Part shown: positions 6,436 through 55,403 of the stretch, piece after piece
How positions within the stretch are numbered: the stretch's first letter is position 1
How the letters are laid out: each line of letters starts with the position of its first letter
Assembly: GCA_026129905.1 (NCBI GenBank)
Contig: JAHCHE010000017.1
Coordinates: 1-64,000 of the forward strand
Source: Bryobacteraceae bacterium
GTDB lineage: Bacteria; Acidobacteriota; Terriglobia; Bryobacterales; Bryobacteraceae
Direction: 5' to 3'
DNA length: 64,000 nucleotides
The notes under the pieces: model-generated
What the model was told of the DNA's origin: nothing
The model's input: the letters and a program-made list of their open reading frames with translations, nothing else
Database searches by the model: none
Made by a program: the position numbers and the translations under genes

Positions 6436-6741
6436 TCACTCGAGTAGCTCCAGGTCGTGCAGGTCGATGTGCCGGCCGCAGGCGCGTTTGTTCCGCGCCA
6501 GATCTTCGCGGCTGATGAACCAGGCTTGCTCCGTCGGCGGCAGCCCGGCCAATGGCGCCCCAAAGGTCACCAGGGACCGAAAAACTCTGCCGGCGTTCTC
6601 TTCGCCGGCTTCAATCCAGAGGTCCAGGTCCTTCGTGTAGCGGGGCTCGGTGTAGAGCATGACGGCGTGCCCGCCCACTACCAGGTACTTAACGGCGTTG
6701 TCGTTGAAAAGCTTCAACAGTTCTTCGAAGTCGGAGTTCAT
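6436..6741 (-). pseudogene. Nucleotidyltransferase-like protein with internal deletion
   Basis: 101 codons starting MNSDFEELLKLFNDN. The block KYLVVGGHAVMLYTEPRYTK then DLDLWI is the GG...D-x-D active-site region of MNT/AbiEii-like nucleotidyltransferases, often paired with a small partner as an antitoxin-like or toxin module. After TFGAPLAGL the sequence jumps to PPTEQAWFISREDLARNKRA, which normally sits 40-50 residues further on; the middle strand with the third acidic residue is missing. The reading frame is kept, so a shortened protein may be made, but it is probably inactive. It overlaps the upstream partner gene by 53 bases in another frame. Confidence 0.65.
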
Positions 6742-6907
6742 CGCCGCCGCCGGGACGACGCGAATGGGCGTCGACCACCATCTGCCATGCCGCCTCCAGT
6801 ATCGCCGCCGGCCCAAGACGCTGCCAATATGCGATATCGAAAGAACGGTCCATCTCAGGCAAACGACCGTAGCGTTCCATGACGAAGTCCGGGCCTGCTT
6901 TGCTCAC
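6689..6907 (-). CDS. Small conserved partner of the nucleotidyltransferase
   Basis: 72 codons from a GTG at 6907 with AGGGA eight bases upstream; an ATG at 6880 is a second choice. MERYGRLPEMDRSFDIAYWQ then RLGPAAILEAAWQMVVDA is a coherent, charged, helical protein, unlike the shadow frames around it. It ends inside the start of the nucleotidyltransferase gene, so the two form a unit transcribed leftward. Similar small-protein/nucleotidyltransferase pairs behave as two-gene modules. No catalytic motif is visible and the function is unknown. Confidence 0.55.
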   Translation of the reverse strand: MSKAGPDFVMERYGRLPEMDRSFDIAYWQRLGPAAILEAAWQMVVDAHSRRPGGGDELRLRRTVEAFQRQRR

Positions 6908-7028
6908 GAATCCGTCCCTGCTCCATTCTAGCCCAGTGGCCGGCGGATCCTTGCTTCAGGCTCCGCGCTCGAACAACGAACGAGGCTTCGTATCGTGGAG
7001 CTTCGCCGGGGACGCCGCGCCTGACGCG

Positions 7029-7340
7029 TTACCTCTTGACGAGAATGTCGTCGCCGGAACCCCAGTCGAACGTCTTGCCGCCCACCACGAGGGTACACCG
7101 GAAGGGGAAGTGGCCCTCGCGCGCCGGGCCTCGCCGCGGCTGATGGATGGGGGCCGACAACGTGAGCTTGCTGGAGCCGGCTTGAAAGGGACTGTCGGCG
7201 AATTCGACGCGCCAGTCGCCGGTATTGCTGGTGAAGGTGATCGAATCATTGACCAGAAACACGTCCGGCTTGTCGGGTTCCCATTTCGTGGGCACGGCTT
7301 GCGGGCCCGGGGGCGGCAACAGGGTGCATTTGTAATCCAT
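7029..7340 (-). CDS. Small hypothetical protein
   Basis: 103 residues with GGAGG eight bases before the ATG. The composition suggests a small cytoplasmic beta-sandwich: PDVFLVNDSITFTSNTG, WRVEFADSPF, 'SKLTLSAP' and CTLVVGGKTFDWGSGDDI. No signal peptide or known family motif is seen. It follows the TPR/kinase gene by four bases and may be its co-transcribed last member. Confidence 0.6.
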   Translation of the reverse strand: MDYKCTLLPPPGPQAVPTKWEPDKPDVFLVNDSITFTSNTGDWRVEFADSPFQAGSSKLTLSAPIHQPRRGPAREGHFPFRCTLVVGGKTFDWGSGDDILVKR

Positions 7341-7344
7341 AGTC

Positions 7345-10430: not shown

Positions 10431-11696
10431 ATGTCCAGGTCGGAGGCGAGGAAGCCCATCCTCGTGCGAGGCGCGCGGCAGTTGCTTACCTTGCGCGGCC
10501 CCAGCGGTCCCCGTCGCGGTTCCGCCATGCGGGAACTCGGACTATTTCAGGATGGGGCTCTCCTGATTTCAGACGGCGTAATCCAGGATGTTGGGCCGAG
10601 CCGGCGGGTGGAGAATCTGGCCGCCGCGCGGGACGCGGAGGAGATTTCTGCCGACGGCCGGGTGGTGATGCCCGGCTTTGTGGACAGCTACGCGCAACTG
10701 GTGTGCGGACCGCCGCTGCTCGACGAGTACGAGTCGCGGATCCTGTCGGACGGCGGCTCGCCGTCAAGGCCCGGCTCGGGAGGGGACCGGACGATTCAGG
10801 CTTTGCGCGCGGCGTCGAAGCAACGTCTGGAACTGGACGCGCGCAAGACGCTTCGCGAATTCATCCGGAACGGCGCGACGGCGATTGGCGCGGCCACAAC
10901 GGCGGATCCGGAGGCGCGGTCGGAGATGAAAGCGCTTCGGGTGATCGCGGCGCTGAACGAGAAACCGCTGGACCTCCTGCCGGCGTTGCGGGTGGAGAAA
11001 TGGCCGCTGTCGGCGGGGGAATGCGAACCGGGCGGGGCACAGGCCGACATTCTGGAAACCCTGATGCACCGGCGGCTGGCGCGCTTTGTCATCGCCGACT
11101 GCGGCCAGGACAACCTTCCACCCGAGGACGCGGACCTGTTGTTGAAGGTGGCGGCGCAGAAGGGTTTCTATGTCGGCGTCGCAACGGACCGTTTCGCGTC
11201 AACAGGCGGCGTACGGGTGGCGGTCGCGAACAACGGCGCGAGCGTCAGTCACCTGACGCACGTCACGGAGGAGGACATCGATCTGCTGGCCCATGCGCCC
11301 ACGGTCGCGACCCTCTTGCCGGGCGCCGTCTTCCACTCGGGCCTGGATCGCTACCCGCCGGCGCGGGCCCTGATTGACGCCGGAGCGGCCGTGGCGCTGG
11401 CGTCAGGTTTCAGTTGCGACCAATCGCCCACGTGCAGTATGGCGGCGGTCATTTCGCTGGCCTGCAACCTGATGCGCATGACGCCGGCCGAGGCGATCTC
11501 GGCGGCCACGATCAACGGCGCTCACGCGCTGCGCTCCGCGCACCGGTTTGGGTCGCTGGAGTACGGAAAAGAAGCAACGCTGCTGATGCTGAATGCGTCC
11601 GACTACCGCGAGATACCGTATCATTTCGGGATGAACCTGATCGCCATGTGCATGAAGCGCGGCGACGTGCTATTTCCCCGCATGGCATACTCGTGA
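10431..11696 (+). CDS. Imidazolonepropionase-like amidohydrolase lacking metal ligands
   Basis: 421 residues from the ATG at 10431; an ATG at 10392 is also in frame, and neither has a strong ribosome site. Overall it follows HutI: an N-terminal strand region (GALLISDGVIQDVGP), PGFVDSYAQLVCGPP, SVSHLTHVTEEDIDLLA, TVATLLPGAVFHSG and SPTCSMAAVISLACNLMRMT followed by 'PAEAISAATINGAHAL'. In HutI the metal ligands are His-x-His in the first block, a His in 'HADQ' and an Asp in 'ATDFNPG'. Here these are Tyr87/Gln89, VATD (250-253) and Gly326. It is therefore probably not a working metal hydrolase, though the fold and the histidine-pathway context are kept. GTGA overlap with ftcD. Confidence 0.75.
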   Translation: MSRSEARKPILVRGARQLLTLRGPSGPRRGSAMRELGLFQDGALLISDGVIQDVGPSRRVENLAAARDAEEISADGRVVMPGFVDSYAQLVCGPPLLDEYESRILSDGGSPSRPGSGGDRTIQALRAASKQRLELDARKTLREFIRNGATAIGAATTADPEARSEMKALRVIAALNEKPLDLLPALRVEKWPLSAGECEPGGAQADILETLMHRRLARFVIADCGQDNLPPEDADLLLKVAAQKGFYVGVATDRFASTGGVRVAVANNGASVSHLTHVTEEDIDLLAHAPTVATLLPGAVFHSGLDRYPPARALIDAGAAVALASGFSCDQSPTCSMAAVISLACNLMRMTPAEAISAATINGAHALRSAHRFGSLEYGKEATLLMLNASDYREIPYHFGMNLIAMCMKRGDVLFPRMAYS

Positions 11697-12607
11697 CCGC
11701 GCCGCTCATCGAGTGCATTCCGAATTTTTCCGAGGGCCGGGATGCGGCGGTTATCGGCCGGATTGTTGCGGCGATCGCCTCGGTCTCGGGCGCGCTGCTG
11801 CTGGATACGCACTCCGACGCCGATCACAACCGGACCGTGGTTACGTTCGCCGGACCGCCGGAGGCGGTGGTGGAAGCGGCGGTGCGGGGCGCGGGAGCGG
11901 CAGCGGAGTCGATCGACATGCGGCGGCACCGGGGCGCGCATCCGCGGATGGGCGCGCTCGACGTGCTGCCGTTCGTGCCGCTGGAAGGCATCACGCTCAC
12001 CGGCTGCGCCGGTCTGGCGGCTGAAGCCGGCGAAGAGATCTGGCGTCTGTACGGCATTCCGGTCTATCTGTACGAAGTGGCCGCGCGGCGCCCGGAACGA
12101 AGAAACCTCGCGAACGTGCGGAGACTTCAATTCGAAGGCCTGTGCGAGCGCGCCCCGTCCGATCCGGCGTGCCGCCCGGACATCGGCGGGCCGGCGTTGC
12201 ATCCGACAGCCGGCGCAACGGCGGCCGGCGCCCGGAAGATCCTGATCGCCTACAACATCCACCTCGCAACGCGCGATGCGACAATCGCTCACCGGATAGC
12301 CCAACGGGTTCGGGAATCCTCGGGCGGCCTGCCATACGTTAAGGCGATGGGCGTGTACCTGGCGGCGCGCGGTCAGGCGCAGGTCTCGATGAACCTGACC
12401 GATTTTGAAACGACGCCTCCGCACGTGGTTTTCGAAGCGGTCGTGGACGAGGCCGCGCGCGAAGGAGTGGAAGTGGCGGGCAGTGAAATCGTCGGGTTGA
12501 TCCCGGGCCGGGCGCTCGAGATGGCGGCCGGACGCGATCTGAAGCTGGAAGGGTTTCATCAAGGCCTGATCCTCGAACGGCGCATCGCAGAGGTTCGCGG
12601 GCGATAA
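11693..12607 (+). CDS. ftcD: Glutamate formimidoyltransferase
   Basis: 304 residues from a GTG overlapping the previous stop (GTGA). It transfers the formimino group of N-formiminoglutamate, a histidine breakdown product, to tetrahydrofolate. The start VTAPLIECIPNFSEGRDAAV, the block DADHNRTVVTFAG (His45), HRGAHPRMGALDVLPFVPL (His83-Pro-Arg-Met-Gly) and YEVAARRPERRNLANVRR are the family signatures. The length equals the transferase domain alone, so the cyclodeaminase half of the mammalian enzyme is absent. It sits between the HutI-like gene and lipA, one base overlapping the lipA start (TAATG). This suggests one operon, although lipoate synthesis has no direct link to histidine use. Confidence 0.9.
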   Translation: MTAPLIECIPNFSEGRDAAVIGRIVAAIASVSGALLLDTHSDADHNRTVVTFAGPPEAVVEAAVRGAGAAAESIDMRRHRGAHPRMGALDVLPFVPLEGITLTGCAGLAAEAGEEIWRLYGIPVYLYEVAARRPERRNLANVRRLQFEGLCERAPSDPACRPDIGGPALHPTAGATAAGARKILIAYNIHLATRDATIAHRIAQRVRESSGGLPYVKAMGVYLAARGQAQVSMNLTDFETTPPHVVFEAVVDEAAREGVEVAGSEIVGLIPGRALEMAAGRDLKLEGFHQGLILERRIAEVRGR

Positions 12608-13482
12608 TGGAAGCAGTGCTGGTTTCCATCGAGCCTCCGAAGCCTCGGCGGCCGGAGTGGCTTCGTGCGCCGGCCCCTGCCGGATCCAACTACCGCGACC
12701 TGAAGTCGCTGGTGGACCGCTTGCGGCTTCACACGGTCTGCGAAAGCGCGGCCTGTCCTAATGTGGGCGAATGCTGGAACCGGCGCACGGCGACGTTCAT
12801 GATCCTCGGCAACGTGTGCACGCGCCGCTGCGGCTTTTGCGCGGTGGGCAAGGGCGCGCCGCTGCCGGTGGACTATGACGAACCGCGGCGCGTCGCCGAA
12901 GCGGTGGCCGAACTGGGTCTGAATTACGCCGTCATCACCAGCGTCAACCGGGACGACCGCAAGGACGGCGGCGCGGAGTTGTTCGCGCTAACGATCCGCG
13001 CCATTCGCGAGGCTGTTCCCGGATGTAAGGTAGAGGTTCTGATCCCGGACTTTCAGGGTAGCCGCGAAGCCCTTGCCATGGTCTTGGAGGCGGAGCCCGA
13101 CGTGCTAAACCACAACACGGAGACCGTGCCGCGCCTTTACCGCCAGGTTCGGCTCGGCGCGCGCTACCAGCGCTCGCTCGACCTGCTGGCCGATTCCAAG
13201 CGGGCGGCGCCTTCGATTCCGACCAAGAGCGGGCTGATGCTCGGGCTCGGGGAAACGCCGGCGGAGGTCCTGGCGGTGATGGGCGACCTCTGCCGCCACG
13301 ACGTCGACATCCTGACGCTGGGGCAATACCTGCGACCATCGCCCAAGCATTTGCCGGTGATCCGCTACCTTCCGCCGGAGGAGTTCGACGGGCTTCGGCG
13401 GTCCGGCCTGGCGATGGGATTCCGGCATGTCGAAGCGGGGCCGCTGGTGCGCAGTTCCTATCACGCCGACCGAGCGATCTGA
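12607..13482 (+). CDS. lipA: Lipoyl synthase
   Basis: 291 residues, standard length. This radical-SAM enzyme inserts two sulfurs into octanoyl groups on E2/GcvH proteins. Both iron-sulfur sites are present: the auxiliary cluster CESAACPNVGEC (Cys45, Cys50, Cys56) and the radical-SAM motif CTRRCGFC (Cys71, Cys75, Cys78). The C-terminal RSSYHA motif (Arg282-His286) supplies the Ser ligand of the auxiliary cluster. Other family blocks are VNRDDRKDGGA, 'NHNTETVPRLY' and 'TKSGLMLGLGET'. No lipB lies nearby. Confidence 0.97.
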   Translation: MEAVLVSIEPPKPRRPEWLRAPAPAGSNYRDLKSLVDRLRLHTVCESAACPNVGECWNRRTATFMILGNVCTRRCGFCAVGKGAPLPVDYDEPRRVAEAVAELGLNYAVITSVNRDDRKDGGAELFALTIRAIREAVPGCKVEVLIPDFQGSREALAMVLEAEPDVLNHNTETVPRLYRQVRLGARYQRSLDLLADSKRAAPSIPTKSGLMLGLGETPAEVLAVMGDLCRHDVDILTLGQYLRPSPKHLPVIRYLPPEEFDGLRRSGLAMGFRHVEAGPLVRSSYHADRAI

Positions 13483-39697: not shown

Positions 39698-40858
39698 TCA
39701 GTTCGCGTCTTCGCCGACGACGCTGCGCCACGCGTCCGGATCCGCGCGCAGCTTGCGGTAGAGATTCTCGAAAAGGATGATGTGCCCGCGCGTGTTGGGA
39801 TGGTTGTCCCACGACGCAAGGCGCAACGCCTCCAGGTCCGGAACTCGCTCGAACGTGTCCAGCAGTTCGACGACGGGAAAATCAAACTCTTTCAGCAGTC
39901 TCTTTGTAGAGAAGAAGCGCCGCTCCAGCACGTCGCGTTCGTCCGCCGTCGGAACCAGGAGCACCACCACCGAAGCGCCGGAACTCGCCGTTTCTCGAAC
40001 GTGCTCCAGCGCCCACCGGTTCACCTCCAGTCGGTATGGTTGCAACCGCCGAATGCTTTCCCGGTAGCCCAATTCGACAGCGGCGCCCGACCGCCGGACA
40101 ATGCCGCGCAGCGTTTCGTACTCGAGATCGATCCCGTGATGGATCAGCGACCACAGATGCTCCGACCAGCCCCGAAACACCAGGTCCGTGAGCGCCAGCA
40201 TATACACGTCCGGATCGAAGCGCCGCGCTTTTTCCGACGCCACGCCGGCGAACTGCGTGACGCGGTAGCCGCTGGTCGAGAAGTTCAGGATTTCAAAGCG
40301 CTGATAGCGGCCGCCCGCGCGCTCCGCATTCAAGCGTTCTTCCAGCAGCGCCTCGTAGTTCCTCCCCACCGGGACGCCCATGCTCCGCGAAACCGAGTCG
40401 CCGAACAGCGCGATTCGGCGCGTCCCAGCCGGCTTGTTCAGCGCGTACGGTCCGTCGGCCATTCCGTGTTCATTCGTGACCAGAGGGCCTTCCCGGGAAT
40501 GCTGCACGTCCAGGTTGGGCTTGAGTTCGTAGACGAGGAACTTGCCCCGGCGGTCGACGATCTCGGGTTCCGCCTGTTCCTCCCGCCGCCGCAACGCGTC
40601 GAGAAACGCGCCGGCGCGTGCACCGGGGACTCCGGTTGACGCGTCCAACAACTGCTCGTAGTACCCGGTCCCTTCCGCCTGCCAGTTCAGCACCCGGCTC
40701 CGCGCATGCCGGACCAGCTTTTGCAGCTCCCACGTCCACTCCCAACCGGTGCTCGCGACGCGAGGGCTGATCCATACCAGACCCAGCGCGGCGAGCAGCG
40801 TCACAATGCACGCCAGCGCCTGCCGCCTGCGTTCGTCCCCCGACGGGAACCGCGTCAT
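39698..40858 (-). CDS. Membrane-anchored SGNH/GDSL hydrolase-like protein, DltD/AlgJ-like role
   Basis: 386 residues. One N-terminal transmembrane helix (ALACIVTLLAALGLVWIS, about 14-31) leaves the rest outside. The SGNH signature is ALFGDSVSRSMGVPVG with Asp154-Ser155. The closing Asp/His block is Asp351 and His353 in WDNHPNTRGH. Such proteins partner MBOAT acyltransferases and carry or transfer the acyl group to a glycan or polymer. It is the last gene of the five-gene operon, ten bases after the adenylating enzyme. Which acceptor it serves cannot be seen. Confidence 0.85.
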   Translation of the reverse strand: MTRFPSGDERRRQALACIVTLLAALGLVWISPRVASTGWEWTWELQKLVRHARSRVLNWQAEGTGYYEQLLDASTGVPGARAGAFLDALRRREEQAEPEIVDRRGKFLVYELKPNLDVQHSREGPLVTNEHGMADGPYALNKPAGTRRIALFGDSVSRSMGVPVGRNYEALLEERLNAERAGGRYQRFEILNFSTSGYRVTQFAGVASEKARRFDPDVYMLALTDLVFRGWSEHLWSLIHHGIDLEYETLRGIVRRSGAAVELGYRESIRRLQPYRLEVNRWALEHVRETASSGASVVVLLVPTADERDVLERRFFSTKRLLKEFDFPVVELLDTFERVPDLEALRLASWDNHPNTRGHIILFENLYRKLRADPDAWRSVVGEDAN

Positions 40859-40868
40859 TGTCTCTTCC

Positions 40869-42434
40869 TCAACCGGCCCCCGCCCCTCGCCGCAGCGTCT
40901 GGTAATCCACCTTCGCCGTAGACGTTCGCGGCAGTTCCGCCACGAATTCAAACCGGTCCGGACTCATGTACGTCGGCAGGTGTTTCGCCGTAAACAGCTT
41001 CATCTCGATCATGGACGGCCTGGCCTCCGGGCGGGTCGCCACGTAAGCGATGATCTGGACGTCGGCGCCGGGTTCGGATCGGGCCACCACGGCCGCTTCG
41101 CGAACCAACAGGTGCCGGTGCAGGACGCTTTCGATCTCTCCTAACTCGATCCGGTAGCCCCGGCGTTTCACCATGCGATCGCGCCTCCCCAGGTACACAA
41201 ACCCCTCCCGGCCGCGCTCCACCACCACATCCCCCGTGTTGTACCAGCGCTTGCCATACCGCTCGACAAACCGGTCCCGGCTCTCGTCCGCGCGGTTCCA
41301 GTATCCGCGGAAAACCGCCGGACCGGCGATGTGAAGCAGGCCCTCCCGTCCGGGCTCGACCGGCCGGCCCTCTTCGCCGAGCACCAGCGCTTCGCAATGG
41401 TCGCAGACCGCGCCGATCGGATAGGGGTCGGTTCGGCCTTCCGGAACGGGCAGCGGAATCGGAGCAAAGGTGCAAACGTTCGTCTCGGTTGGGCCGTACA
41501 GGTTGTAATACCGCGGGTGCGGCCACAGCTTCGTAAGCGCGCGCAGGCGCTTCACCGGGAACACCTCCCCGGCGAACAACGCCAGCCGCAGAGCCGAACA
41601 GTCCAGCTTCGCCAGTTCGCCAAACTCGGCCATTAGGCCGAGGATCGACGGCGCCGAGTACCAGACCGTGAGACGATTGGCGGCGATGAAGCGGGCCAGT
41701 TCGCGAGGATTCTTTCCTAGGTCGTCGCCGATGAGGTAGACGCAGGCGCCGTGCCGGGACGCAAGGTACAGGTCCAGTACCGACAGGTCGAAGTAGAAGG
41801 GCGCGTGGCTACTGAATCGGTCCTGCTCGGTAGGGCGGAAAACGCCGCCGGCCCACTCGACGAAGCTCGTGGCGTTCTCGTGGGTCAGCATCACCCCCTT
41901 GGGAACGCCTGTCGATCCCGACGTGTATAGAATGTACGCCAGGTCTTCCGCCCGCGTCGTCCGCTCCCCGGCCGCAAGAGGCGGATGCGCCGCCGCTTCC
42001 TCCCAGGCGACCGCGCCGGCGCCGCTTCGTTCGCCCGTCACCACCACGGTTTGCGGCCTCGCCGCCGGCGCTAGGTCGTCCAGCGCCGCAAGACAGTTCG
42101 GATGGACCACCACGGTTCGCATCGGGCAATCCGTCAGAATGGCGCGCAGCCGCGCCGCCGGGGCGGTCCAGTCGAGCGGAACATACGCAGCGCCCGCCTT
42201 CATCGCCCCATAGAGCGCCGCCACCTTCACCGTCCCCTTCGGCAGGAGCAACCCGACGCGGTCGCCCGCGCCAATGCCGCGAGACCCCAGGTACCCGGCG
42301 AACCGGTCCGCCATCCCGTTCAACCGGGCATAGCTCACCGCCCCGTCGGCGGGATCCACCACCGCGGGCCGTTTGGGAAATCGGGCGGCGCTCTGCTCCA
42401 GGTACGCCGGCAGAACCGCGGCGGGACCCGTCAC
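40869..42434 (-). CDS. Stand-alone amino-acid-type adenylating enzyme
   Basis: 521 residues of the ANL superfamily. ATP loop YTSGSTGVPKG (170-180), FYFDLSVLDLYL with Asp216 where amino-acid-specific domains bind the alpha-amino group, SAPSILGLM, GEVFPVKRL, YYNLYGPTETNVC, WYNTGDVVV, GRRDRMVKRRGYRIELGEIE and the catalytic Lys508 in TSTAKVDYQTL. It activates an acid as AMP ester and loads it onto a carrier. The sequence is closest in feel to DltA and to proline-activating enzymes of pyrrole pathways; substrate undecided. The GTG start overlaps the carrier gene stop (GTGA). Confidence 0.92.
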   Translation of the reverse strand: MTGPAAVLPAYLEQSAARFPKRPAVVDPADGAVSYARLNGMADRFAGYLGSRGIGAGDRVGLLLPKGTVKVAALYGAMKAGAAYVPLDWTAPAARLRAILTDCPMRTVVVHPNCLAALDDLAPAARPQTVVVTGERSGAGAVAWEEAAAHPPLAAGERTTRAEDLAYILYTSGSTGVPKGVMLTHENATSFVEWAGGVFRPTEQDRFSSHAPFYFDLSVLDLYLASRHGACVYLIGDDLGKNPRELARFIAANRLTVWYSAPSILGLMAEFGELAKLDCSALRLALFAGEVFPVKRLRALTKLWPHPRYYNLYGPTETNVCTFAPIPLPVPEGRTDPYPIGAVCDHCEALVLGEEGRPVEPGREGLLHIAGPAVFRGYWNRADESRDRFVERYGKRWYNTGDVVVERGREGFVYLGRRDRMVKRRGYRIELGEIESVLHRHLLVREAAVVARSEPGADVQIIAYVATRPEARPSMIEMKLFTAKHLPTYMSPDRFEFVAELPRTSTAKVDYQTLRRGAGAG

Positions 42435-42688
42435 GAACGGCCTTCCTTCTTCCGGACGACGAATGCGGCGATGTCCGCGACGCTATCGAAGTTCTCCACC
42501 CCGGTTTCGTGCGCCTCGACTTCGATCTTGTAGTGCTCCTCCAGAAACGTGATCAGTTGCAGCGTCGCCACCGAACTGAGAATCCCACTCGTCCGGAGCG
42601 GCGTATCGTCCTGCAAATTCGACGGAGACTCTCCGGGAAGAAACTCCTGCAACACGTAACTCCGGATATCCTCTTTGACTTCATTCAC
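42431..42688 (-). CDS. Acyl/peptidyl carrier protein
   Basis: 85 residues, acidic, four-helix carrier fold: MNEVKEDIRSYVLQEFLP, LRTSGILSSVATLQLITFLE and EEHYKIEVEAHETGVENFDS. The phosphopantetheine serine is Ser39 in LSSVATL; the usual Asp before it is Ser, as in some carriers outside fatty acid synthesis. It sits between the MBOAT gene and the adenylating enzyme and is coupled to the latter by a 4-base overlap, so it is the carrier for this pathway rather than the fatty-acid ACP. Confidence 0.92.
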   Translation of the reverse strand: MNEVKEDIRSYVLQEFLPGESPSNLQDDTPLRTSGILSSVATLQLITFLEEHYKIEVEAHETGVENFDSVADIAAFVVRKKEGRS

Positions 42689-42715
42689 GATGACTTACCT
42701 CTTAATCCACAACGC

Positions 42716-44029
42716 TCACTTCCACCACGTAAGTAGATCCATCCAATATTCCACCGTGGGCGCCTGCCACAAGGACCACAAGACGGTGATCAGTGAGAAC
42801 GTGCCTGCCACCTGCGCATAACCCAACCACCGCGGCTGGTGCTCTCCCTTTCGCCTCGGATGCTTGATCTCCCAAATCAGGTTGACAATCACCAGCGCCC
42901 CAAGAATTCCCCAGAACAGGACATCCGGCCACGTGAACAGTACCTCTCCCCGTAGCCAGAAGAACTGGTAAGAATGGAGCGCCCACGTCGCCAGAAACAC
43001 GCTCGCCGTAGCCACAACCTGCGCCTGCAGATCGCCTCGTTTCCGAAGCCGGAAATAGATCGGAAAGTAGACGATCTTTACCATGAAGTCCTTCCAGTAG
43101 ACGTTGATCCTGCGCCAGAAGTCCGTGAGGCTGCTCGCCAGTAGGTACCGGCGATGCGTTTCGGGCAGATCGTAGCCGAATAAATGCAGCAGGCCGATGA
43201 TGAAGTGAAACGTCCCGCTTACGCGGAGATACAAAAGGTAAGCCAGAAGCAGGCAAGTTGCCAGCGCGGCGAAGCTGGTGGTGTTCTCCGGCGCGCGGGA
43301 GTTATTCCAATGCTCGATGACGCGGTACAGCAGTAACTGAATCACTCCCCGCGTCATCCAGGTGATCCCCTGCTGCGCCGAGTCGTGTATGTCGCGCTGG
43401 TAGAAGCTGCGCCGCATCGTCTGATAGTCGATCAGCGGGAACAGCAGGAAGTAGTAGTTCGGCAGAACGAAAAAGTACCGCAGGTATTCGCGGAGAGAGG
43501 GCTTCCCCCGCTCGTGGCGGATATCGTAAAGGTAGACGATCATCCGGAACATGAACAACGATCCGAACATCGGCCAGAATTCCGCCGGAAACCCGGGCGG
43601 CCCGGAGCGGCTCACGAATGCCGCCGCCGCACCGCCCAGCGCGATCAGGCCGGCCCGTACCCGGAAAGGGAGCCCGCTCCGCGCAATGCCAAAGAACAGG
43701 ATGCCCACCCCGATCAGCAGGATCGCCGTTTCCGTGTAGAAAAAGACAAACGCCGACGCCAGCGACAGCAGTATCCAGAAAGGCTCCTTCCAACGGAACG
43801 GAAGCCAATAATGAACGGCAAAGCCGGAGAAAGCCAGCGCCGCCAGGAGATGGAAGCTGCGGGTTTCGACTCGAAATACGCGGATGACCGCGAACAGCAG
43901 ACCGAGTTGAACCAGCAGCCGCGCGAACTGGACGAGATTCGCCGTCGCCCGTTTCTCGCGCGGGTCCGAGGCCGCGGCAGCGGATTCCGGCAGCGCGTAC
44001 GAGATGAGCCGCGTAATCGCCGTCGCCAT
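42716..44029 (-). CDS. MBOAT family membrane acyltransferase
   Basis: 437 residues, about 10-11 transmembrane helices. The MBOAT core contains LTDFWRRINVYWKDFMVKIV (303-309 DFWRRIN) and the conserved catalytic His352 in ATWALHSYQFFWLRG. Other polar loop blocks: RMIVYLYDIRHERG and LPNYYFLLFPLIDYQ, the latter seen in DltB/AlgI-type proteins. It would take an acyl group from the carrier protein on the cytoplasmic side and pass it across the membrane. The start lies two bases after the dehydrogenase stop and 27 bases before the carrier gene. Confidence 0.9.
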   Translation of the reverse strand: MATAITRLISYALPESAAAASDPREKRATANLVQFARLLVQLGLLFAVIRVFRVETRSFHLLAALAFSGFAVHYWLPFRWKEPFWILLSLASAFVFFYTETAILLIGVGILFFGIARSGLPFRVRAGLIALGGAAAAFVSRSGPPGFPAEFWPMFGSLFMFRMIVYLYDIRHERGKPSLREYLRYFFVLPNYYFLLFPLIDYQTMRRSFYQRDIHDSAQQGITWMTRGVIQLLLYRVIEHWNNSRAPENTTSFAALATCLLLAYLLYLRVSGTFHFIIGLLHLFGYDLPETHRRYLLASSLTDFWRRINVYWKDFMVKIVYFPIYFRLRKRGDLQAQVVATASVFLATWALHSYQFFWLRGEVLFTWPDVLFWGILGALVIVNLIWEIKHPRRKGEHQPRWLGYAQVAGTFSLITVLWSLWQAPTVEYWMDLLTWWK

Positions 44030-44031
44030 GC

Positions 44032-45183
44032 CTACAACCTCAGCGCGGCCGCGATGATGTTCCGCTGGATCTCCGTGGTGCCGGAGTACAGCGAGCTGCC
44101 CACGGCATTCCGCAGCTCCAACTCAATCAACTGCTCCGTCATGTACCCATAGCCACCATGGATCTGAATGGCATCCAGGCACGACTTGACATAGCAGTCG
44201 GATACATACAGCTTTGCCACGGCGGCCTCCAGCATGGCCGGCAGATTCCTCTCCTTCAGGCGCCCGATCCGGTACACCATAGGCCGCGACGTCTCCAGAC
44301 GGACCTTCATGTCGACGATGCGGTTGGCCACCGATTGAAACTTCCCGATCGGCTTGCCGAACTGCCTTCGAGCGCGGACGTGGCCGATGCACTCCTCCAA
44401 CTGGCGGCGCATGACTCCCAGGCAGTTGGCCAGAATACAGCCGCGCTCCCATTCCATCGAGGACTCGAAAACGGCTACGCCGCGTCCTTCTCGCCCCAGC
44501 CGCTGCGCCAGAGGAATCTCGCAATTGTCAAACACCACTTCGGCCATTGGCGACGTTCGCAAGCCCATTTTTTCCATCGGGCGGCCGACATGAAGGCCCG
44601 GCGTGTCCCGTTCGACGAGGAAGGCCGTCACGCCCAACGCCCCGAGCGACGGGTTAATCGTGGCGTAGGTGACAAAGAGGCCCGCCACCGGCGCGTTGGA
44701 GACGAACGTCTTGGCCCCATTGAGAACGTAACAGTCCCCTCGCCGCTCGGCCCGCGTCCGCATCGAGAAAATGTCGGACCCCGCTTCGGGCTCCGAGGCG
44801 GCGTTGGCGCCGATCAGTTCGCCGGTCGAAAGCCGCGGAAGATACTTCCGCTTTTGCTCTTCCGTACCATACGCCAGTATTGGAATGGAATTGGTCCACA
44901 GGTGCGCATTGATGGAGAACAGCAGCCCCTGGTCTCGGGTCGCATACCCCAGCCCTTCCATCGCCGCGATCATGTCCACCGGCCCGTGACCCAGCCCGCC
45001 ATAGGTCTCCGGGACCGGCATCGCGAGGACCCCGAACTCGGCGCACTGCCGCCAGCCCTCGCGATGGAATTCTTCGTCCCGGTCGCGCCGCGCAATGTCC
45101 GGACATTCCAGCCGGGACCGCGCGAATTCGATCGCCGCGTTCTGCAAACTCCGCTGATCTTCCGTGAGTTCGAGATCCAGCAT
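44032..45183 (-). CDS. Acyl-CoA/acyl-carrier dehydrogenase, PigA/IVD-like
   Basis: 383 residues. FAD-binding blocks: GANAASEPEAGSDIFSMRT, YVLNGAKTFVSNAPVAG, RRQFGKPIGKFQSVANRI, DAIQIHGGYGYMTE and LYSGTTEIQRNIIA. The catalytic base of medium-chain enzymes (Glu in YEGT) is replaced by Ser367. Instead MEWERGCILANCLG places Glu246 where isovaleryl-CoA dehydrogenase and the prolyl-carrier dehydrogenases (PigA, RedW, PltE) have theirs. Together with the linked carrier and amino-acid-type ligase, this favours oxidation of a carrier-bound acyl group. It is the first gene of the operon. Confidence 0.88.
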   Translation of the reverse strand: MLDLELTEDQRSLQNAAIEFARSRLECPDIARRDRDEEFHREGWRQCAEFGVLAMPVPETYGGLGHGPVDMIAAMEGLGYATRDQGLLFSINAHLWTNSIPILAYGTEEQKRKYLPRLSTGELIGANAASEPEAGSDIFSMRTRAERRGDCYVLNGAKTFVSNAPVAGLFVTYATINPSLGALGVTAFLVERDTPGLHVGRPMEKMGLRTSPMAEVVFDNCEIPLAQRLGREGRGVAVFESSMEWERGCILANCLGVMRRQLEECIGHVRARRQFGKPIGKFQSVANRIVDMKVRLETSRPMVYRIGRLKERNLPAMLEAAVAKLYVSDCYVKSCLDAIQIHGGYGYMTEQLIELELRNAVGSSLYSGTTEIQRNIIAAALRL

Positions 45184-47627: not shown

Positions 47628-50600
47628 TCAGAAGATGAGCCTTACGCCGAGATTCAGTTGGCGTCCGGAACCGAAGCTATCCGTTCCCCAGGCGTTCGTC
47701 CGGGTGGCGACAATCCTTCCGAAGTTCGGCGAGTTCAGATTCGCCACCGGATTGGCGAACTGGGCGCTATTGGTCACGTTGTAGAGCTCTCCGCGGAACT
47801 CGAGCCTCCGCTGCTCGCTAAACGAGAAGGAGCGGAACAGGCCGAGGTTGTAATTGAAGAAACCCGGGCCGCGAAAGGCGTTTCTTCCGACGTTGCCGAA
47901 TGTCCCTGGCGCGGGCATCGAAAAGGGGTTTGTATCGAAGTACAGCCCGGCGCCGATATCCCCCGGCGTGGAACCGGAGAAGTTCACGTCGCCCGTGACG
48001 TCGGCAGTGACGAGATTGTTGCCGGGACAGCATTCCAGCGAACCGGCGACAGGCGTGAACGGCAGGCCGCTGACCCACTGCAGCGTGCCGGTGAGTTCCC
48101 AATCGGTCAGCAGCCGGGTGAGCCACCCTGCGTTCTGGATGGACAGGTCCCAGACGTGGGACGCGGCGAAGACGTGCGTGCGGTCAAAATCGGCCGGTCC
48201 GTAGTTGCGCCGCCTGTCGAAGTTGTACAGCAGGAAGTCTTGTCCACTGACTTCATCCAGGGTCCTGCTGTAGGTGTAGGAAGCGCTCCCGCTCAGGCCG
48301 AAGGCGAATCGCTTTCTGGCGGAAGCCTGGAGCGCGTTGTAGTTGTTGTTAGCGCCGGTGTCGGCGTGAATGGTGCTTGCGCCACGTCCAAACTCTTCCA
48401 GCAGCGGAATGCCGGCCATCCCCGTTCCGGGCATGGCGGCGTTCCATTGCCGGTAATACGGAAGGCGCCGGCCCAGCGTTCCGACATAGCCCACGTCCAT
48501 GGTCAAGGCGCCGGGCAGTTCCGTCTGGTAGGTCACGTTGTAGCTGTGCACAACCGGCGTTCGGGGCGCTTCCGACAGGAATACCAGCGGCTGAGTCCCC
48601 GGGGGCGTTATCGTCCCGGCGCTCAGATCGCCCAGCTCCGGTGGCGGTCCCGTAAACAAGGCTCCGCCGGGCGCGTACACGCCGTCGAGACCCAGTTGTG
48701 AACTCACCACCGCCGGATACGGACCGCCGGCCGCGAACCCGATCGTGGTTGGGAAGTAGCTCATGGCATAACCTGCCCGGATCGCGGACCGGTTGCCAAG
48801 CCGGTATGCCATACCGAACCGCGGAGCGACGTTGTTGGCGTCCCAGCGCACGCCGGCGTACCGGTTCACGCCTCCGAGGCCGCCGATTCGCAGCGTGTTG
48901 TCCGCGGGATTGTAGTTTCCGATGCCGCCCTCGTGCGCCGCCCTTACCGGAGAGAAGACATCGTAGCGCAGGCCGGCGTTCAGACTGAGGCGATTGGTGG
49001 CGCGCCAGGTGTCGCCGATGAACCCCGAATAGAACGTCCTCCGGTAGGCGGGCTGCATCGCCTCAACCGCTGTGATCGACGTGGCCGGCATGCCGAGAAG
49101 GAAGCTCGCGAACTCGGAGGCGCCGGATCCCGGATTCAAGGCGGCATCGGGGGATGAGGTCGCGCCGAAACCAAAGGTGTACGCCGTGCCGGGGCTGAAG
49201 CCGAACCCGCCGGGCATCAGTCCCAGGCCGCGGTAACCGTCGACCCGGAAATGATGGACGTCCGCGCCGAACACCACCGTGTGGCGGCCGGTCGTCCAAC
49301 TCCAGTTATTTCCAACCTGGTAAGTGTTGTCGACCATGCGGGCGGGAAGTCCTTCGCGCGCGCCGATCGACGTCATTGTTCCGAATTGAAAGGTCGGCAG
49401 CCTTTCTCCGCCGAGGTTGCCGAGCGGAAGCCCCGCCAGCGGGTTCTGCGCATTCACCGGATCCAGGAAGTTACGGTAGCGGTTATAACCAAGTCGCGCC
49501 TCAGTTACTAACTGAGAACCGAAGATGTGGTTAAAGCCCAGATAGGCATTGTGAGTTCGCAGCCGGCCTTCGGCGTCGTTGCCGAGAACGTTGCCCAGCG
49601 GCGAAGCGTCGGAGACGAAGTACTTTCCGTAGCGATAGTTGAGGAACAGGCTGGAGTTGGACCCGATGCGCGCGTCAACCCGTCCGCCGGTTCGATGATT
49701 GTCGTTGCGCAACGGGGCGTACGCCAGCAGGTTATTCTCGATGCCCGGCTGGTTCGCCTCAGGGAAGAACGGCAGCAGTTGCTGGGTGATCGGATTCAAG
49801 CGGGACGTCGGTATCGCGTTGTTAGTGAACGGGGTACGGCCCGCGCCGCTGGCGCCCCCCGTGGCCGGATCGAACAGGGTGAGGTTTGGAATCTCCGAGA
49901 AATCGCCCTGCCGCATCGCCGCGGTCGGCGTGGTCGCCAAGCGGGGCCTGTCCCAGTGGAGGTAGGAACCTTCGTACGTGCCGAAGAAGAACACCCTGTC
50001 TGGCGCAATCGGGCCGCCGATGTTGCCGCCGAACTGGTTCCAGCGGAACTGGCCTTCCGGGATGGCATCGGTTTCAAAGAAGTCGCGGTTGCGGAATTCG
50101 TCGATGCTATTGAACCAGTAGGCGCTGCCGTGAAACTCATTCGCGCCGGATCGCGTGATCGGGTTTACGATCGAACCGCCCGACCAGCGGGACGAAGGTT
50201 CATAGCTTCCGGTTACTACTTTCGTTTCATCGAGCGATTCGACGGGCGAAATGAAGATACTCGTGTGCGATGTCGGCTCGTTCTGATAGAAGCCGTCCAT
50301 GTTCCAACTGTTGGCTATGTAGGATTGCCCGTTCGTGTTGAAGATTCGATTCCGCTGAGGATCCAAGAGGATCGGCGTGGACGTTTCAGGCGGAGTAATA
50401 CCGGGCAGAAGACCAATGAGTTCCTGGAAATTGCGGTCCCGGATGGGAAGTTCCCGAATCTGGCGCGCTCCCAGGCCCATGACGATCTCGCCGTTTTCCG
50501 CGCCGATCTGCGTCCCGGCCGCGGTCGCCTGGACCGTCTCGCCGGCCGCCCCGGTTTCAAGCGCAATGGCGATCTGCGCGGGTCGGACCGTGGTTAAGGT

Positions 50601-50873
50601 TACGTCCTCCAGCACATACGAACGGTAGCCTGGAGCCTGCGCCTCCACCCGGTACCGGCCCGGCGGCAGACCTGTCAGTCGGAACCTTCCGTCGCTGTCC
50701 GTTAGAGCCTGCGTTGTTCTCTGGGTTTCGATCTGCGTCACGGCGAGGGCCACGTTGGGAACGCCCTCTCCGGTGACCGTTACCACTCTACCGGTTATGG
50801 TCCCATTCTGTTGCGCAAGCGCCGTAAAACAGCACAGCGCGGTTACTAATAGTGTCGTTCTGATTTTACTCAC
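47628..50873 (-). CDS. TonB-dependent receptor with carboxypeptidase-regulatory domain (Oar-like)
   Basis: 1081 residues from a GTG at 50873 with GGAGG upstream; signal peptide TTLLVTALCCFTALAQ. Residues about 20-110 form a carboxypeptidase-regulatory-like beta-sandwich (NGTITGRVVTVTGEGVPNVA, SDGRFRLTGLPPGRYRVEAQ), followed by a plug-like region with ELPIRDRNFQELIGLLPGIT and FNTNGQSYIANSWNMDGFY. The barrel ends 'NLGVRLIF' with terminal Phe, needed for outer-membrane insertion. This is the typical acidobacterial Oar-like receptor of about 1100 residues. It probably takes up a glycan or peptide with TonB energy; the substrate is unknown. Confidence 0.92.
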   Translation of the reverse strand: MSKIRTTLLVTALCCFTALAQQNGTITGRVVTVTGEGVPNVALAVTQIETQRTTQALTDSDGRFRLTGLPPGRYRVEAQAPGYRSYVLEDVTLTTVRPAQIAIALETGAAGETVQATAAGTQIGAENGEIVMGLGARQIRELPIRDRNFQELIGLLPGITPPETSTPILLDPQRNRIFNTNGQSYIANSWNMDGFYQNEPTSHTSIFISPVESLDETKVVTGSYEPSSRWSGGSIVNPITRSGANEFHGSAYWFNSIDEFRNRDFFETDAIPEGQFRWNQFGGNIGGPIAPDRVFFFGTYEGSYLHWDRPRLATTPTAAMRQGDFSEIPNLTLFDPATGGASGAGRTPFTNNAIPTSRLNPITQQLLPFFPEANQPGIENNLLAYAPLRNDNHRTGGRVDARIGSNSSLFLNYRYGKYFVSDASPLGNVLGNDAEGRLRTHNAYLGFNHIFGSQLVTEARLGYNRYRNFLDPVNAQNPLAGLPLGNLGGERLPTFQFGTMTSIGAREGLPARMVDNTYQVGNNWSWTTGRHTVVFGADVHHFRVDGYRGLGLMPGGFGFSPGTAYTFGFGATSSPDAALNPGSGASEFASFLLGMPATSITAVEAMQPAYRRTFYSGFIGDTWRATNRLSLNAGLRYDVFSPVRAAHEGGIGNYNPADNTLRIGGLGGVNRYAGVRWDANNVAPRFGMAYRLGNRSAIRAGYAMSYFPTTIGFAAGGPYPAVVSSQLGLDGVYAPGGALFTGPPPELGDLSAGTITPPGTQPLVFLSEAPRTPVVHSYNVTYQTELPGALTMDVGYVGTLGRRLPYYRQWNAAMPGTGMAGIPLLEEFGRGASTIHADTGANNNYNALQASARKRFAFGLSGSASYTYSRTLDEVSGQDFLLYNFDRRRNYGPADFDRTHVFAASHVWDLSIQNAGWLTRLLTDWELTGTLQWVSGLPFTPVAGSLECCPGNNLVTADVTGDVNFSGSTPGDIGAGLYFDTNPFSMPAPGTFGNVGRNAFRGPGFFNYNLGLFRSFSFSEQRRLEFRGELYNVTNSAQFANPVANLNSPNFGRIVATRTNAWGTDSFGSGRQLNLGVRLIF

Positions 50874-51126
50874 AACTAACCCCTCCGACCATGTAGATTC
50901 GACCTGCACCAATTCGTTTCGACACGGGTGACGGATGGCTGCAATTTGTCAGGATCGATAGCGTAGTCGCACTAATTCAATTACTACCGAGGCCGCTATG
51001 GGTAGGTTTTTTCCCTGGGTGGTTTCCCGAAATTGGAAGCGTTCCTACGAACATTGGAATCGCTCGCCCCGATGGCGGTTGGCCGCAACGCGCTGGTTCC
51101 GTGTAGCATACTGGGGGACGCGCAGC

Positions 51127-52065: not shown

Positions 52066-53088
52066 TCAGAACTTGCCGTCGCGTACTTCGAAGTGGGTGG
52101 GCTTATTGAGCGAGACGCCGCCGGATCGGATCCAGCCCGCGATCCAGTCGATTATCTGTGACGGCGTCACCCGCGGCTTCCCGAAGCGGGCATGGCACCG
52201 CGACGCGTTATTCAGCAGCGCCGTCTCCGCTTCCTTCCCCGTAAACTCCGGCTCCACGCCGAAATGCCGGCCGAACTCGAGGGCGACGTCGCGCACGGAG
52301 AGCGTTTCGGGACCGGTCAGGTTGAGAATCGCCGGTGGCGACTGGCACAACTCGAACGAGCGGAGGCAGGCGGAGTTGGCGTCGCCTTGCCAGATCACGT
52401 TCGCGTAGCCCATGGTGAGATCGATGGGACGCCGTTCGAAGACTTGGCGTCCGATGTCGACCAGAACGCCATAGCGCAACTCGACGGCATAGTTGAGGCG
52501 CAGCATCACAACGCGCGTGCCGTAGCTCCGGGAAAAGTACTCAAAAATGCGCTCGCGCGCCAGCACTGACTGCGCGTACTCGCCCACGGGTCCCACCGCG
52601 GTTTCCTCGGTGGCGCCGCCGCCGGACACGGGAACGAACGGGTAGATGTTGCCGCTGGAGAAGGCGACGATCGCCGCGTCGCGGTATCGTTCGGCCACAC
52701 GGCCTGGCAGGACAGCGTTCATCGCCCAAGTGAGCGATTCCTCGCCGGTTGAGCCGAACTTCCGCGCGGCCATGTAGATGACGTTCTTTGCGTCCGGCAG
52801 CCCCGCGAGTTCGTCGGCGTTCAACAGGTCGGCGGAGATGGTCTCGACGCCGCCATCCTCCAACTGGCGCCGCGCCTGCGGACTGCTGAATCGCGATACG
52901 CCTATGACCCGGGCACGGGCGCCTGTCTCGCGGGCGGCGCGGGCGGCGCGGAGCGCGAGGCTGGGGCCCATCTTACCTCCGACTCCGAGGATCAGCAGGT
53001 CGCCCTCGAGGGACCGGATCGCGGCGCGGTCTTCTTCGTACGGAGCGGAGAGCAGGTTCTCGAGATCGTACTCGCTGGCGATCGTCAT
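52066..53088 (-). CDS. NAD(P)-binding epimerase/dehydratase-like protein
   Basis: 340 residues from the ATG at 53088, overlapping the upstream stop by four bases (ATGA). Rossmann motif [20 protein letters not shown] is extended-SDR-like, with [37 protein letters not shown] and [20 protein letters not shown]. In classic members Tyr-x3-Lys follows; here [19 protein letters not shown] has Tyr but no Lys three residues later, so the usual proton relay is altered. It is the last gene of the mqnA-mqnC operon; a role in nucleotide-sugar chemistry is a guess. Confidence 0.78.
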
Positions 53089-53567
53089 CGTTTGTAGCCT
53101 ATTTTTCGCAGGAAGCTGTGCCGGAACTCGATGTCCTTCTCTCCCTCGACGCCAAGCGGCGACTCTCCGTCGACCGCGCCAAGGACCGCCCGTCCCTGCT
53201 CGGTCTCGGCGACGATGACCTCGACCGGATTCGCCGTCGCGCAGAAGATGTTGCATACTTCCGGAACGTCTTTGATCCGCCCCAGAATGTTGATGGGAAA
53301 TCCTTCCCGCATCGTAACAACGAAAGTGTGGCCCGCCGCAATGGCCTGCGTGTTGCGAACGGCGAGTTCCTTCAGCTCTTCGTCGTTGCCGTCGCTTCGG
53401 ATCAGACGGTGTTGCGATGCTTCGGAGAACGCCACGCCGAACTTCATCCGCGGCGCCGTGTTGACAATGGCTTCGTAAACGTCCTCAACCGTTTTGATGA
53501 AATGAGAATGGCCGACGATGATATTCCCTCCCTCGGGAATCTCCAGCCGTACAGCTCTGAGTTCCAT
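53085..53567 (-). CDS. Adenosine-specific kinase family protein
   Basis: 160 residues, full length for PF04008. Signature stretches: [80 protein letters not shown] and [20 protein letters not shown], then [18 protein letters not shown]. The family is named for adenosine binding; its cellular role is not well defined. It lies ten bases after mqnC. Because the futalosine route uses and releases adenosyl/inosine parts, a link through nucleoside salvage is possible but unproven. Confidence 0.9.
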
Positions 53568-53577: not shown

Positions 53578-54609
53578 CTAGTTCAGGAAATAGGTTCGAT
53601 ACAGCGTGTCGCGCTGCCTGGGTATGAAACCGGCGTCGCGGATGATGCGGCGCAGCTCCTCTTCGCTAGCCTTGTTGCGGGCCCCCGCCGCGGAGACCAC
53701 GTTCTCCTCGATCATGATGCTGCCCACGTCGTTTCCTCCAAACCGCAGGCCGATTTGACACGTCTTCAGTCCCTGCGTCACCCACGACGACTGCACGTTG
53801 AGGATGTTGTCCAGGTACACGCGCGAAACGGCGAGCGTTGTCAGATACTCGACGGCGGTGGCTTCCTCCTTGACGAAGCGGCCTAGCGAGGTGTTCTCAG
53901 GCTGGAAGCTCCAGGGAATGAAGGCCGTAAAGCCCCCGTACTCTTCCTGGAGCCGGCGAATGCCCTCGAGGTGGTTCATCCGCTGGTCGACGGTCTCCCC
54001 GCAGCCGAACATCATTGTCGCGGTCGTGCGCATGCCGAGCTGGTGCGCCGTCCGGTGCACGTCGTACCATTCCGCGGTGGAGCACTTGAGCCGGCTGATG
54101 CGATGGCGCACCGCGTCGTCGAGGATCTCGGCGCCGCCGCCGGGAATGGAATCGAGTCCCGCATCGCGCAACCTGGCAATCGTCTCCCGCAGCGACAGCC
54201 CGCTCACCTCGGCGATGTTGACGATCTCCGGCGAGGAGAAGCAGTGGAGATGAATGCGGAAACGCTTCTTGATGGAGGAAAGCAGATCTTCGTACCACTC
54301 GATCTTCAGGTCCGGGTGGAGCCCGCCTTGCATCAGGATCCCCGTGCCGCCGAGATCGATCGTCTCCTGGATTTTCTCGTGGATGACTTCTTTGGGGAGG
54401 ATGTAGCCGTCGGCATGGCCCAGCGGGCGATAGAAGGCGCAGAACGAGCAGTACTCGGTGCAGAAGTTCGTGTAGTTGATGTTGCGATCGATGATGTAGG
54501 TGACGATGCCTTCCGGGTGCAGCCGGCGCCGGACGGCGTCGGCCTCGATTCCGATGCCGATGAGGTCGTCGCTCCGGAACATGTCGATGGCTTGGTCTCG
54601 AGTGATCAT
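53578..54609 (-). CDS. mqnC: Cyclic dehypoxanthinyl futalosine synthase
   Basis: 343 residues. A radical-SAM enzyme of the futalosine menaquinone pathway, closing the ring of dehypoxanthinyl futalosine. The cluster motif is Cys50-x3-Cys54-x2-Cys57 in [19 protein letters not shown]. Supporting blocks are '[20 protein letters not shown]', [40 protein letters not shown] and [14 protein letters not shown], and late [19 protein letters not shown]. MqnC is separated from MqnE by the NINYTNxC start and the 'IPWxFQPxNT' block. The start overlaps mqnA by four bases (ATGA). Confidence 0.95.
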
Positions 54610-55403
54610 ACCGGCACGGGCCTCGCGTTCAATTTCGCCGCATACTTGAGGTAAAGCTCCAGCCCTTTGTACTCATTCTCCCCCAAGCCGTTGCGGACGT
54701 GGCGCGTCAGGTAGGCGCGGACCAGGGGTTGAGAAATCCGGCGGCTTTCGGATTCGGCGCGAATGATCTGTTCGAGGTTAGCCAGTCCGAAGCGGCGCGA
54801 TCCATTGAAGGCGGCCTCGAGTTCGGTGAGCCTGCGCAGGTTCCGGCCGGCCCAGACCGCGAAGACCATGGGCAGGCCGGTCATTCGGGTCCACTCGTCG
54901 CCCAGGTCCCAGCATTGGTGCGGCAGGGAGGCCGGTTCTACCCGGAGCGCCGGATCGCCGATCACCAAAGCTGCATCCGCGGCCTCCAGCATCGACGGCA
55001 GGTCGGGGCGCATCACCATAACCCGCGGGGCGCTGCCGTGGATCTCAGAGAGGATGATTCGCGCCAGAACGACCGACGTCCGCGAACTGGAATCGCCGGC
55101 GAGCGTACGGACCTCGCGAAGCGGGCGCTTGCTCACCAGCAGGATGCTGCGAACCGGTCCAAAACTGGCGATGCCGGACCCCGGAATCATGTCTAGCCCG
55201 AGGCGGGGCAGTTCAACCGCCGGCACGATGCCGATGTCGGCCGAGCCGTCCTCCAGACGGTCCGCGCACTCGGAAGGTACGCAGAACGAAAGCTGGAACA
55301 AGCCGCGCTGTTGCCCGTGCAGCATGCCCCAAACCAGCGGAACAGTGTTCAGATAGCCAACGGCGCACACACGGGGCTTGCGATCGGGGCAAAAGGGCGT
55401 CAA
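54606..55403 (-). CDS. mqnA: Chorismate dehydratase
   Basis: 265 residues. First step of the futalosine route: chorismate to 3-enolpyruvylbenzoate. Family blocks: VCAVGYLNTVPLVWGML, ADIGIVPAVELPRLGLDMIP, GIASFGPVRSILLVSKRPLR, LAGDSSSRTSVVLARIILSE, ALVIGDPALRVEP, WTRMTGLPMVFAVWAGRN and 'YLTRHVRNGLGENEYKGLEL'. The fold is a periplasmic-binding-protein-like domain used as an enzyme. First gene of a four-gene operon with mqnC, the adenosine kinase and an epimerase-like gene; mqnB, mqnD and mqnE are elsewhere. Confidence 0.95.
   Translation of the reverse strand: MTPFCPDRKPRVCAVGYLNTVPLVWGMLHGQQRGLFQLSFCVPSECADRLEDGSADIGIVPAVELPRLGLDMIPGSGIASFGPVRSILLVSKRPLREVRTLAGDSSSRTSVVLARIILSEIHGSAPRVMVMRPDLPSMLEAADAALVIGDPALRVEPASLPHQCWDLGDEWTRMTGLPMVFAVWAGRNLRRLTELEAAFNGSRRFGLANLEQIIRAESESRRISQPLVRAYLTRHVRNGLGENEYKGLELYLKYAAKLNARPVPV

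Follow-up and report, generated by a model that had tools for sequence, protein, structure and literature searches.

The closest described relatives of the system considered here are the Dlt pathway, the O-acyltransferases of the PatAB kind and the thiotemplated pyrrole cassettes of natural product biosynthesis. The Dlt pathway (DltABCD, with DltX) unites an adenylating enzyme, a carrier, an MBOAT membrane acyltransferase and an SGNH protein, whereas other MBOAT/SGNH systems, as stated in the available part of one paper, lack a carrier and keep the MBOAT and the SGNH component as separate proteins (PMC12148441). According to the same part, the residue that PatA acylates is a tyrosine within the FXYXXF hexapeptide at its own C-terminus, and DltX carries an FXYXXF-type motif for DltB, an arrangement proposed for other MBOAT-SGNH pairs as well (PMC12148441). 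A thiotemplated pyrrole trio comprises a carrier, a proline adenylase and a dehydrogenase with a catalytic Glu, according to the accessible text of PMC10849742. Representatives are PltF-PltE-PltL, PigI-PigA-PigG and the Bmp3-Bmp1 kind. Known pyrrole cassettes generally feed polyketide or condensing enzymes. In coumermycin and clorobiocin biosynthesis a carrier-bound pyrrole acyl group ends up on the hydroxyl of a sugar, a transfer that resembles the pathway proposed below but is not known to involve an MBOAT or SGNH protein. Here we describe a five-gene operon of a Bryobacteraceae bacterium (GCA_026129905.1, 8.57 Mb; our genome G000) whose products resemble components of all three systems. It occupies positions 39698-45183, minus strand, of the first 64,000 nucleotides of contig JAHCHE010000017.1 (our contig C9), the stretch analysed and hereafter called the window. 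Among open-access PMC literature listings, a scope outside which most subscription papers fall, no pyrrolyl or prolyl MBOAT system was found.

The operon consists of five tightly packed, co-directional open reading frames (ORFs) encoding a putative prolyl-carrier dehydrogenase of the acyl-CoA dehydrogenase superfamily (44032..45183, 383 aa), an MBOAT membrane acyltransferase (42716..44029, 437 aa), a stand-alone carrier protein (42431..42688, 85 aa), a proline-type adenylating enzyme (40869..42434, 521 aa) and a membrane-anchored SGNH acyltransferase (39698..40858, 386 aa). The last ORF is open as far as 40951; with its start taken at 40858, the gaps of 2, 27, -4 and 10 bases named in the original prediction are exact. 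Pfam confirmed the dehydrogenase and the AMP-binding enzyme, gave only GDSL matches below the cut-off for the SGNH ORF and returned no match for the MBOAT and the carrier. We consider it probable that these genes build a proline-derived acyl group on the carrier and then place it on an exported polymer. The reactions that we infer from the sequences would begin with the activation of L-proline by the adenylating enzyme, which would load the carrier, and continue with a flavin-dependent oxidation of the prolyl-carrier, which would yield a dehydroprolyl thioester or, if four electrons are removed, a pyrrole-2-carboxyl one. Where the inner membrane faces the cytoplasm, the DltB-like MBOAT would take the acyl group off the carrier. 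One tyrosine of the Tyr-Tyr motif that follows the membrane helix of the SGNH protein would receive it next, and from there it would reach the SGNH serine and finally a glycan or glycolipid hydroxyl group. Both the oxidation on the carrier and the passage of the acyl group across the inner membrane, with a divergent MBOAT-SGNH pair as the transferase, are likely, and the earlier interpretation, oxidation on the carrier followed by transfer to a surface glycan or lipid, is supported.

The core segment of the adenylating enzyme matched PDB entry 6o6e best (196.6 bits, against 134.7 bits for the best DltA), which we take to be PltF, its title naming an L-proline ligase together with PltL. From Asp216 to Lys508 (40911..41789, minus strand), the specificity positions read DLLYLALVCK, and the pocket (DLLYLALVC) is identical to that of PltF at nine of nine compared positions, chosen by the usual GrsA numbering. 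This identity argues against D-alanine as substrate. The code DL[LF]Y[LF]ALV[CV] recurs in all 12 adenylases of the set. An amino or a branched acid had originally been envisaged as the activated substrate; the pocket carries the proline code of PltF, and proline is the more likely substrate than a branched acid. For the carrier, matches were obtained to peptidyl carriers such as PltL and PigG. Its presumed phosphopantetheine site, Ser39 (42572..42574) in GILSS (motif 42572-42577), corresponds to a serine in 18 of 18 carriers; an Asp precedes it in 16, the exceptions being the window (GILSS) and locus L087 (GILVS). An ornithine-lipid carrier, the best NCBIfam model for this protein (NF052616, 114.6 of 130 bits), was considered and set aside; the paper on that pathway describes a route of GH3-like and alpha/beta-hydrolase proteins and, in the main text as available, makes no mention of MBOAT, proline, dehydrogenase or acyl carrier protein (PMC12493201).

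The dehydrogenase resembles enzymes acting on carrier-bound proline. Its best four PDB sequences were 4irn (a prolyl-acyl carrier protein dehydrogenase, E = 6e-127), which we take to be AnaB, followed by 6cxt, 5zw0 and 6af6; the next match, an ordinary enzyme, reached E = 2e-82. Both 5zw0, presumably PigA, and 6af6, a PigA variant, are listed as L-prolyl-carrier dehydrogenases. Entry 6CXT is Bmp3 in the available part of PMC10849742. The next three matches of the dehydrogenase in the same genome show 28-35% identity. Glu246 in the motif SMEWERG (44446..44448, minus strand) occupies the catalytic base position of prolyl-carrier oxidases, with the same Glu in the rows of 4irn and 5zw0, and Ser367 in YSGT (44083..44085, minus strand) aligns with the medium-chain Glu position. 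These two residues had been singled out at the outset, and both signatures, WER with the Glu and SGT with the Ser, are kept in all 11 dehydrogenases of the set, whereas eight ordinary dehydrogenase loci (L112-L119) have EGT at the Ser367 position and no Glu at the 246 position. In a 19-row tree, which had been asked for in the original prediction, the set grouped as expected with AnaB, Bmp3 and PigA, apart from ordinary enzymes, on an unstarred branch (85/83). The window enzyme joined those of loci L067, L005, L074 and L087 at 99/98 and branched with AnaB (90/90, unstarred), while those of L073 and L075, which stand beside halogenases, joined PigA and Bmp3 (83/83, unstarred). Ordinary acyl-CoA oxidation is disfavored by the PDB ranking, the tree and the Glu and Ser residues. 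The features of a prolyl oxidation trio are thus all present: a proline code, a Glu at the AnaB position without the medium-chain Glu, and a stand-alone carrier with its Ser.

The MBOAT label draws on a 20-bit match to DltB, a conserved core with its histidine and a predicted model (pLDDT, the predicted local distance difference test, of 70.7; built on six sequences) that is nearest DltB. The best solved match was DltB 8jem (Z score 20.0, root-mean-square deviation 4.1 over 348 residues), 6bug scored 19.0, and rows 1-24 were, judged by their titles, all MBOAT-superfamily proteins, the next row falling to 7.3. All but one of the 31 rows share the presumed catalytic His352 (42974..42976, minus strand), and the exception is a fragment that ends short of it. 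The predicted fold and the histidine place the protein in the MBOAT superfamily, although it lacks a Pfam match. What sets this subfamily apart is its C-terminus. Relatives supplied 28 frames of ordinary MBOATs for comparison; of the 27 with a closed end, 25 terminate in F.Y..F, both exceptions being short frames, whereas FXYXXF was not found behind the histidine in any of the 30 His-holding rows of this subfamily, the window protein included; eight proteins have a match before it.

The predicted SGNH model (pLDDT 69.7, six sequences) matched CgnD best (8a2n, Z score 18.9), then GDSL lipases and esterases at 14.7 and below. Among 27 relatives, 26 retain the catalytic Ser155, 25 Asp351 and 25 His353. 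Behind the membrane helix predicted from hydropathy (residues 14-32; 40763..40819, minus strand) lies the conserved GYY at residues 65-67 (40658..40666, minus strand), which occurs in all 27 aligned SGNH parts, in each case in the linker behind the last membrane helix, and is followed by E in 23. Three further SGNH parts, those of L065, L070 and L078, did not enter this count because they scored low or were damaged. GYY stands in L065 and DYY in L070; in L078, whose MBOAT frame contains an internal stop, no GYY was found in the stretch searched, the part being damaged and counted as unreadable. The Tyr-Tyr pair is therefore present in 29 of 29 readable SGNH parts. We propose one of its tyrosines as a candidate relocated shuttle that may have taken over the role of FXYXXF; a docking or structural role fits equally well. 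With the PatAB kind the window operon shares an MBOAT with His and a membrane-linked SGNH protein with Ser, Asp and His, but its subfamily lacks FXYXXF behind the histidine, has Tyr-Tyr in the SGNH linker, is frequently fused and is accompanied by a carrier. In L067 the MBOAT-SGNH pair is separated from the proline cassette by a gene for another SGNH protein, which is of the AlgX kind (12062-13192).

A scan with the single MBOAT yielded five loci: two come from Planctomycetota and one each from KSB1, Deltaproteobacteria (Myxococcota in the tree) and Bacteroidota (Neolewinella aurantiaca). A six-row MBOAT profile, applied phylum by phylum at E 1e-30 or better, then matched 4 of 347 genomes in the window's phylum, 8 of 294 in that of L005, 3 of 296 in that of L009 and 5 of 282 in that of L007, with up to 5-8 first-look candidates scored per genome, and 1 of 82 in that of L006; every count takes in the genome from which the search started. 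Altogether 28 loci were read (the window, L005-L009, L065-L082 and L087-L090), several sharing one genome. The full set of carrier, adenylase, dehydrogenase and transferase occurs in 11 of them (the window, L005, L007, L009, L067, L073, L074, L075, L087, L089 and L090), which belong to four phyla and differ in gene order; recurrence in shuffled order argues that the set is not a chance assembly. The dehydrogenase accompanies 11 of the 12 adenylases of this type, and the twelfth locus, L066, is cut by the contig end within the adenylase. The expected co-occurrence of the genes thus holds, mostly in distant bacteria: among the 101 nearest genomes only the window's own and G073 scored above 500 bits for the MBOAT, the other 38 that matched reaching at most 46.5 bits, so conservation in close kin was not found.

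In 21 of the 28 loci a single frame encodes both MBOAT and SGNH; five loci (window, L005, L067, L070 and L074) have them separate, and two (L065 and L078) are unclear. These fusions, the missing shuttle motif, the Tyr-Tyr motif and the halogenase neighbors described below go beyond the original prediction. Tandem copies also occur, with three MBOAT parts in L006 (KSB1) and two fusions in L080 (phylum of L009), which suggests that a single cell uses several different acyl groups or acceptors. In L068 and L069 an enzyme resembling fatty-acyl-AMP ligases and a carrier take the place of the proline cassette, and L082 has both nearby, so that the transferase resembles a chassis whose load can be swapped. 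The cassette for its part appears elsewhere: L092-L095, in genomes of the window's phylum without this MBOAT, hold the dehydrogenase together with a DLFYLALVC adenylase, which indicates that these two form a cassette; no carrier was found in the 4 kb stretches of these loci, which probably belong to separate natural-product pathways. The dehydrogenase is only partly tied to this MBOAT. Among the matches listed, again from up to 5-8 first-look candidates per genome, 13 dehydrogenases of at least 340 bits were found in the window's phylum, two of their 13 genomes (G000 and G362) holding the MBOAT, and five of at least 350 bits in the phylum of L005, with the MBOAT in four of those genomes. Nor do the MBOATs of the set form one clade: they are scattered on the tree with six changes (five without the contig-end loci L006, L065, L072 and L088), and a single-clade constraint gave a borderline approximately unbiased (AU) test p of 0.042 for a group that was not chosen blind. 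Just behind the proline set, L087 (13165-16073) encodes a second dehydrogenase, of ordinary type, and a second AMP-binding enzyme.

Some relatives carry a halogenase-family gene next to the set. Behind the dehydrogenase gene, L073 and L075 have one gene each of the O-methyltransferase and Trp_halogenase families, and the L075 halogenase matches PltA (E = 6e-118), 5buk (2e-117) and ChlB4 (5e-117), the next match reaching 4e-51. A more distant halogenase-family gene stands in the same place in L009 (best E = 2e-45). PltA chlorinates the pyrrolyl-carrier. These neighbors support a pyrrole on the carrier in the relatives concerned, which is likely for the halogenase branch. A paper title in the available part of PMC10849742 places PltA in pyoluteorin biosynthesis. 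The window operon itself has no halogenase gene. Close to its proline cassette, L073 encodes a protein combining a B12-binding radical SAM and an aspartyl/asparaginyl beta-hydroxylase domain (127-2571).

The gene neighborhoods suggest that the acceptor is probably a glycan. Directly behind the SGNH gene, L074 and L005 have Polysacc_synt (flippase-type) and sulfotransferase genes; a glycosyltransferase and a bacterial sugar transferase lie near the set in L007, an ABC transporter (exporter) and glycosyltransferases in L009, a glycosyltransferase and an epimerase in L067, and two glycosyltransferases some 3-5 kb away in L090. In L079 the frames flanking the MBOAT-SGNH fusion (5575-7767 and 11068-11475) start with 30 residues that are almost the same, as if an insertion had entered a polysaccharide-type locus. 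The window operon sits between a sulfatase gene and a Gfo/Idh-type gene, and an outer-membrane barrel is encoded nearby at 47628-50912, in agreement with the TonB and outer-membrane setting recognized in the original prediction. A scan for promoters and terminators in the operon stayed at chance level, and no Rfam or tRNA match fell inside it. Farther away, 53578-55403 encodes two adjoining menaquinone-type proteins, one CofH/MqnC-like radical SAM protein and one VitK2_biosynth protein.

Several observations weigh against the proposed pathway. The dehydrogenase stays below the NCBIfam cut-offs of PigA (436.9 bits, cut-off 500) and RedW (417.8, cut-off 650), its placement in the proline group and its branch with AnaB are weakly supported, and the second proline ligase, 7thn, matches the adenylase core no better (130.8 bits) than DltA does. 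Mixed dehydrogenases exist in L097-L104, whose Glu occupies the AnaB position or one close to it, yet with VGT, AGT or GGT in place of SGT (ERL with VGT in L097-L100, WER with AGT in L101, L102 and L104, WDR with GGT in L103), so that the Glu alone is no proof of prolyl oxidation. Both six-sequence models leave the Tyr-Tyr segment unplaced (pLDDT <50 in the SGNH model). The single neighbors scanned in L066, L075, L087 and L089 are unrelated, and none of the 12 window neighbors scanned is clearly devoted to glycan synthesis, the sole possible sugar gene among them encoding an NAD epimerase-family protein 7 kb off (52066-53256).

The extent of the oxidation bears on the nature of the exported group, which in the window we infer to be pyrrole-2-carboxyl or dehydroprolyl. 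AnaB reportedly makes dehydroproline, and the window enzyme, nearest AnaB in both PDB match and branching, may likewise halt after two electrons; the half-oxidized dehydroprolyl group would then be exported and pyrrole formed only in the halogenase branch, whose enzymes in L073 and L075 group with PigA and Bmp3. We regard this course as possible though rather doubtful: the two branches on which it leans are the weakly supported ones mentioned above, and pyrrole formation is stated for AnaB and Bmp3 alike in the accessible text of PMC10849742. It also appears conceivable that the MBOAT-SGNH pair places the acyl group, during export, not on a surface polymer but on a small natural product or lipid that is secreted. 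The best match of the SGNH model, CgnD, belongs to crocagin biosynthesis, the O-methyltransferase and halogenase neighbors resemble natural-product tailoring, and the window operon adjoins no glycan cluster among the neighbors scanned; against this stand the glycan-type genes near the set in six loci and the lack of any nonribosomal peptide synthetase or polyketide synthase among the neighbors scanned (a minority of all neighbors), and we judge this explanation unlikely.

Plain D-alanylation, or another amino-acyl esterification with the dehydrogenase as a passenger, is very improbable. The carrier-fed MBOAT with a model nearest DltB would suit it, as would the 245 and 261 bits that DltA models score against the adenylase. 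However, every Dlt model tested stayed below its cut-off (DltB equivalog TIGR04091, 20.1 of 375 bits; DltA equivalog TIGR01734, 244.9 of 559.85; DltC model PRK05087, 23.6 of 68), the pocket code is that of PltF and the dehydrogenase is missing beside this adenylase only where a contig ends. DltX was not found in the operon, whose largest gap of 27 bases leaves no room for it, the search having been confined to the operon. With Dlt the system shares the roles of adenylase, carrier, MBOAT and SGNH protein and would work in a similar manner, yet none of the models tested identifies it as Dlt, and it differs by its proline code, the extra dehydrogenase and the outer-membrane barrel next door. From the pyrrole cassettes it is distinguished by its MBOAT-SGNH transferase.

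For the proposed export of a proline-derived group we tentatively envisage, as a view that falls somewhat short of being probable, a third type of architecture for moving acyl groups across the membrane, in which a carrier-fed MBOAT would hand the group to the Tyr-Tyr motif of an SGNH linker or fusion, the acyl cassette would be exchangeable, and proline-derived, sometimes halogenated pyrrolyl groups would end up on surface glycans. The missing FXYXXF together with the Tyr-Tyr pair offers a sharp test of how acyl groups pass the membrane in MBOAT-SGNH systems, for which the single-chain fusions are convenient structural models. If the proposed pathway is true, it would join the thiotemplate chemistry of natural products to envelope tailoring and extend extracytoplasmic acylation from groups like acetyl and D-alanyl to oxidized, in places halogenated, proline rings, which could alter the charge and hydrophobicity of the cell surface, its recognition by phages or predators and its antimicrobial character.

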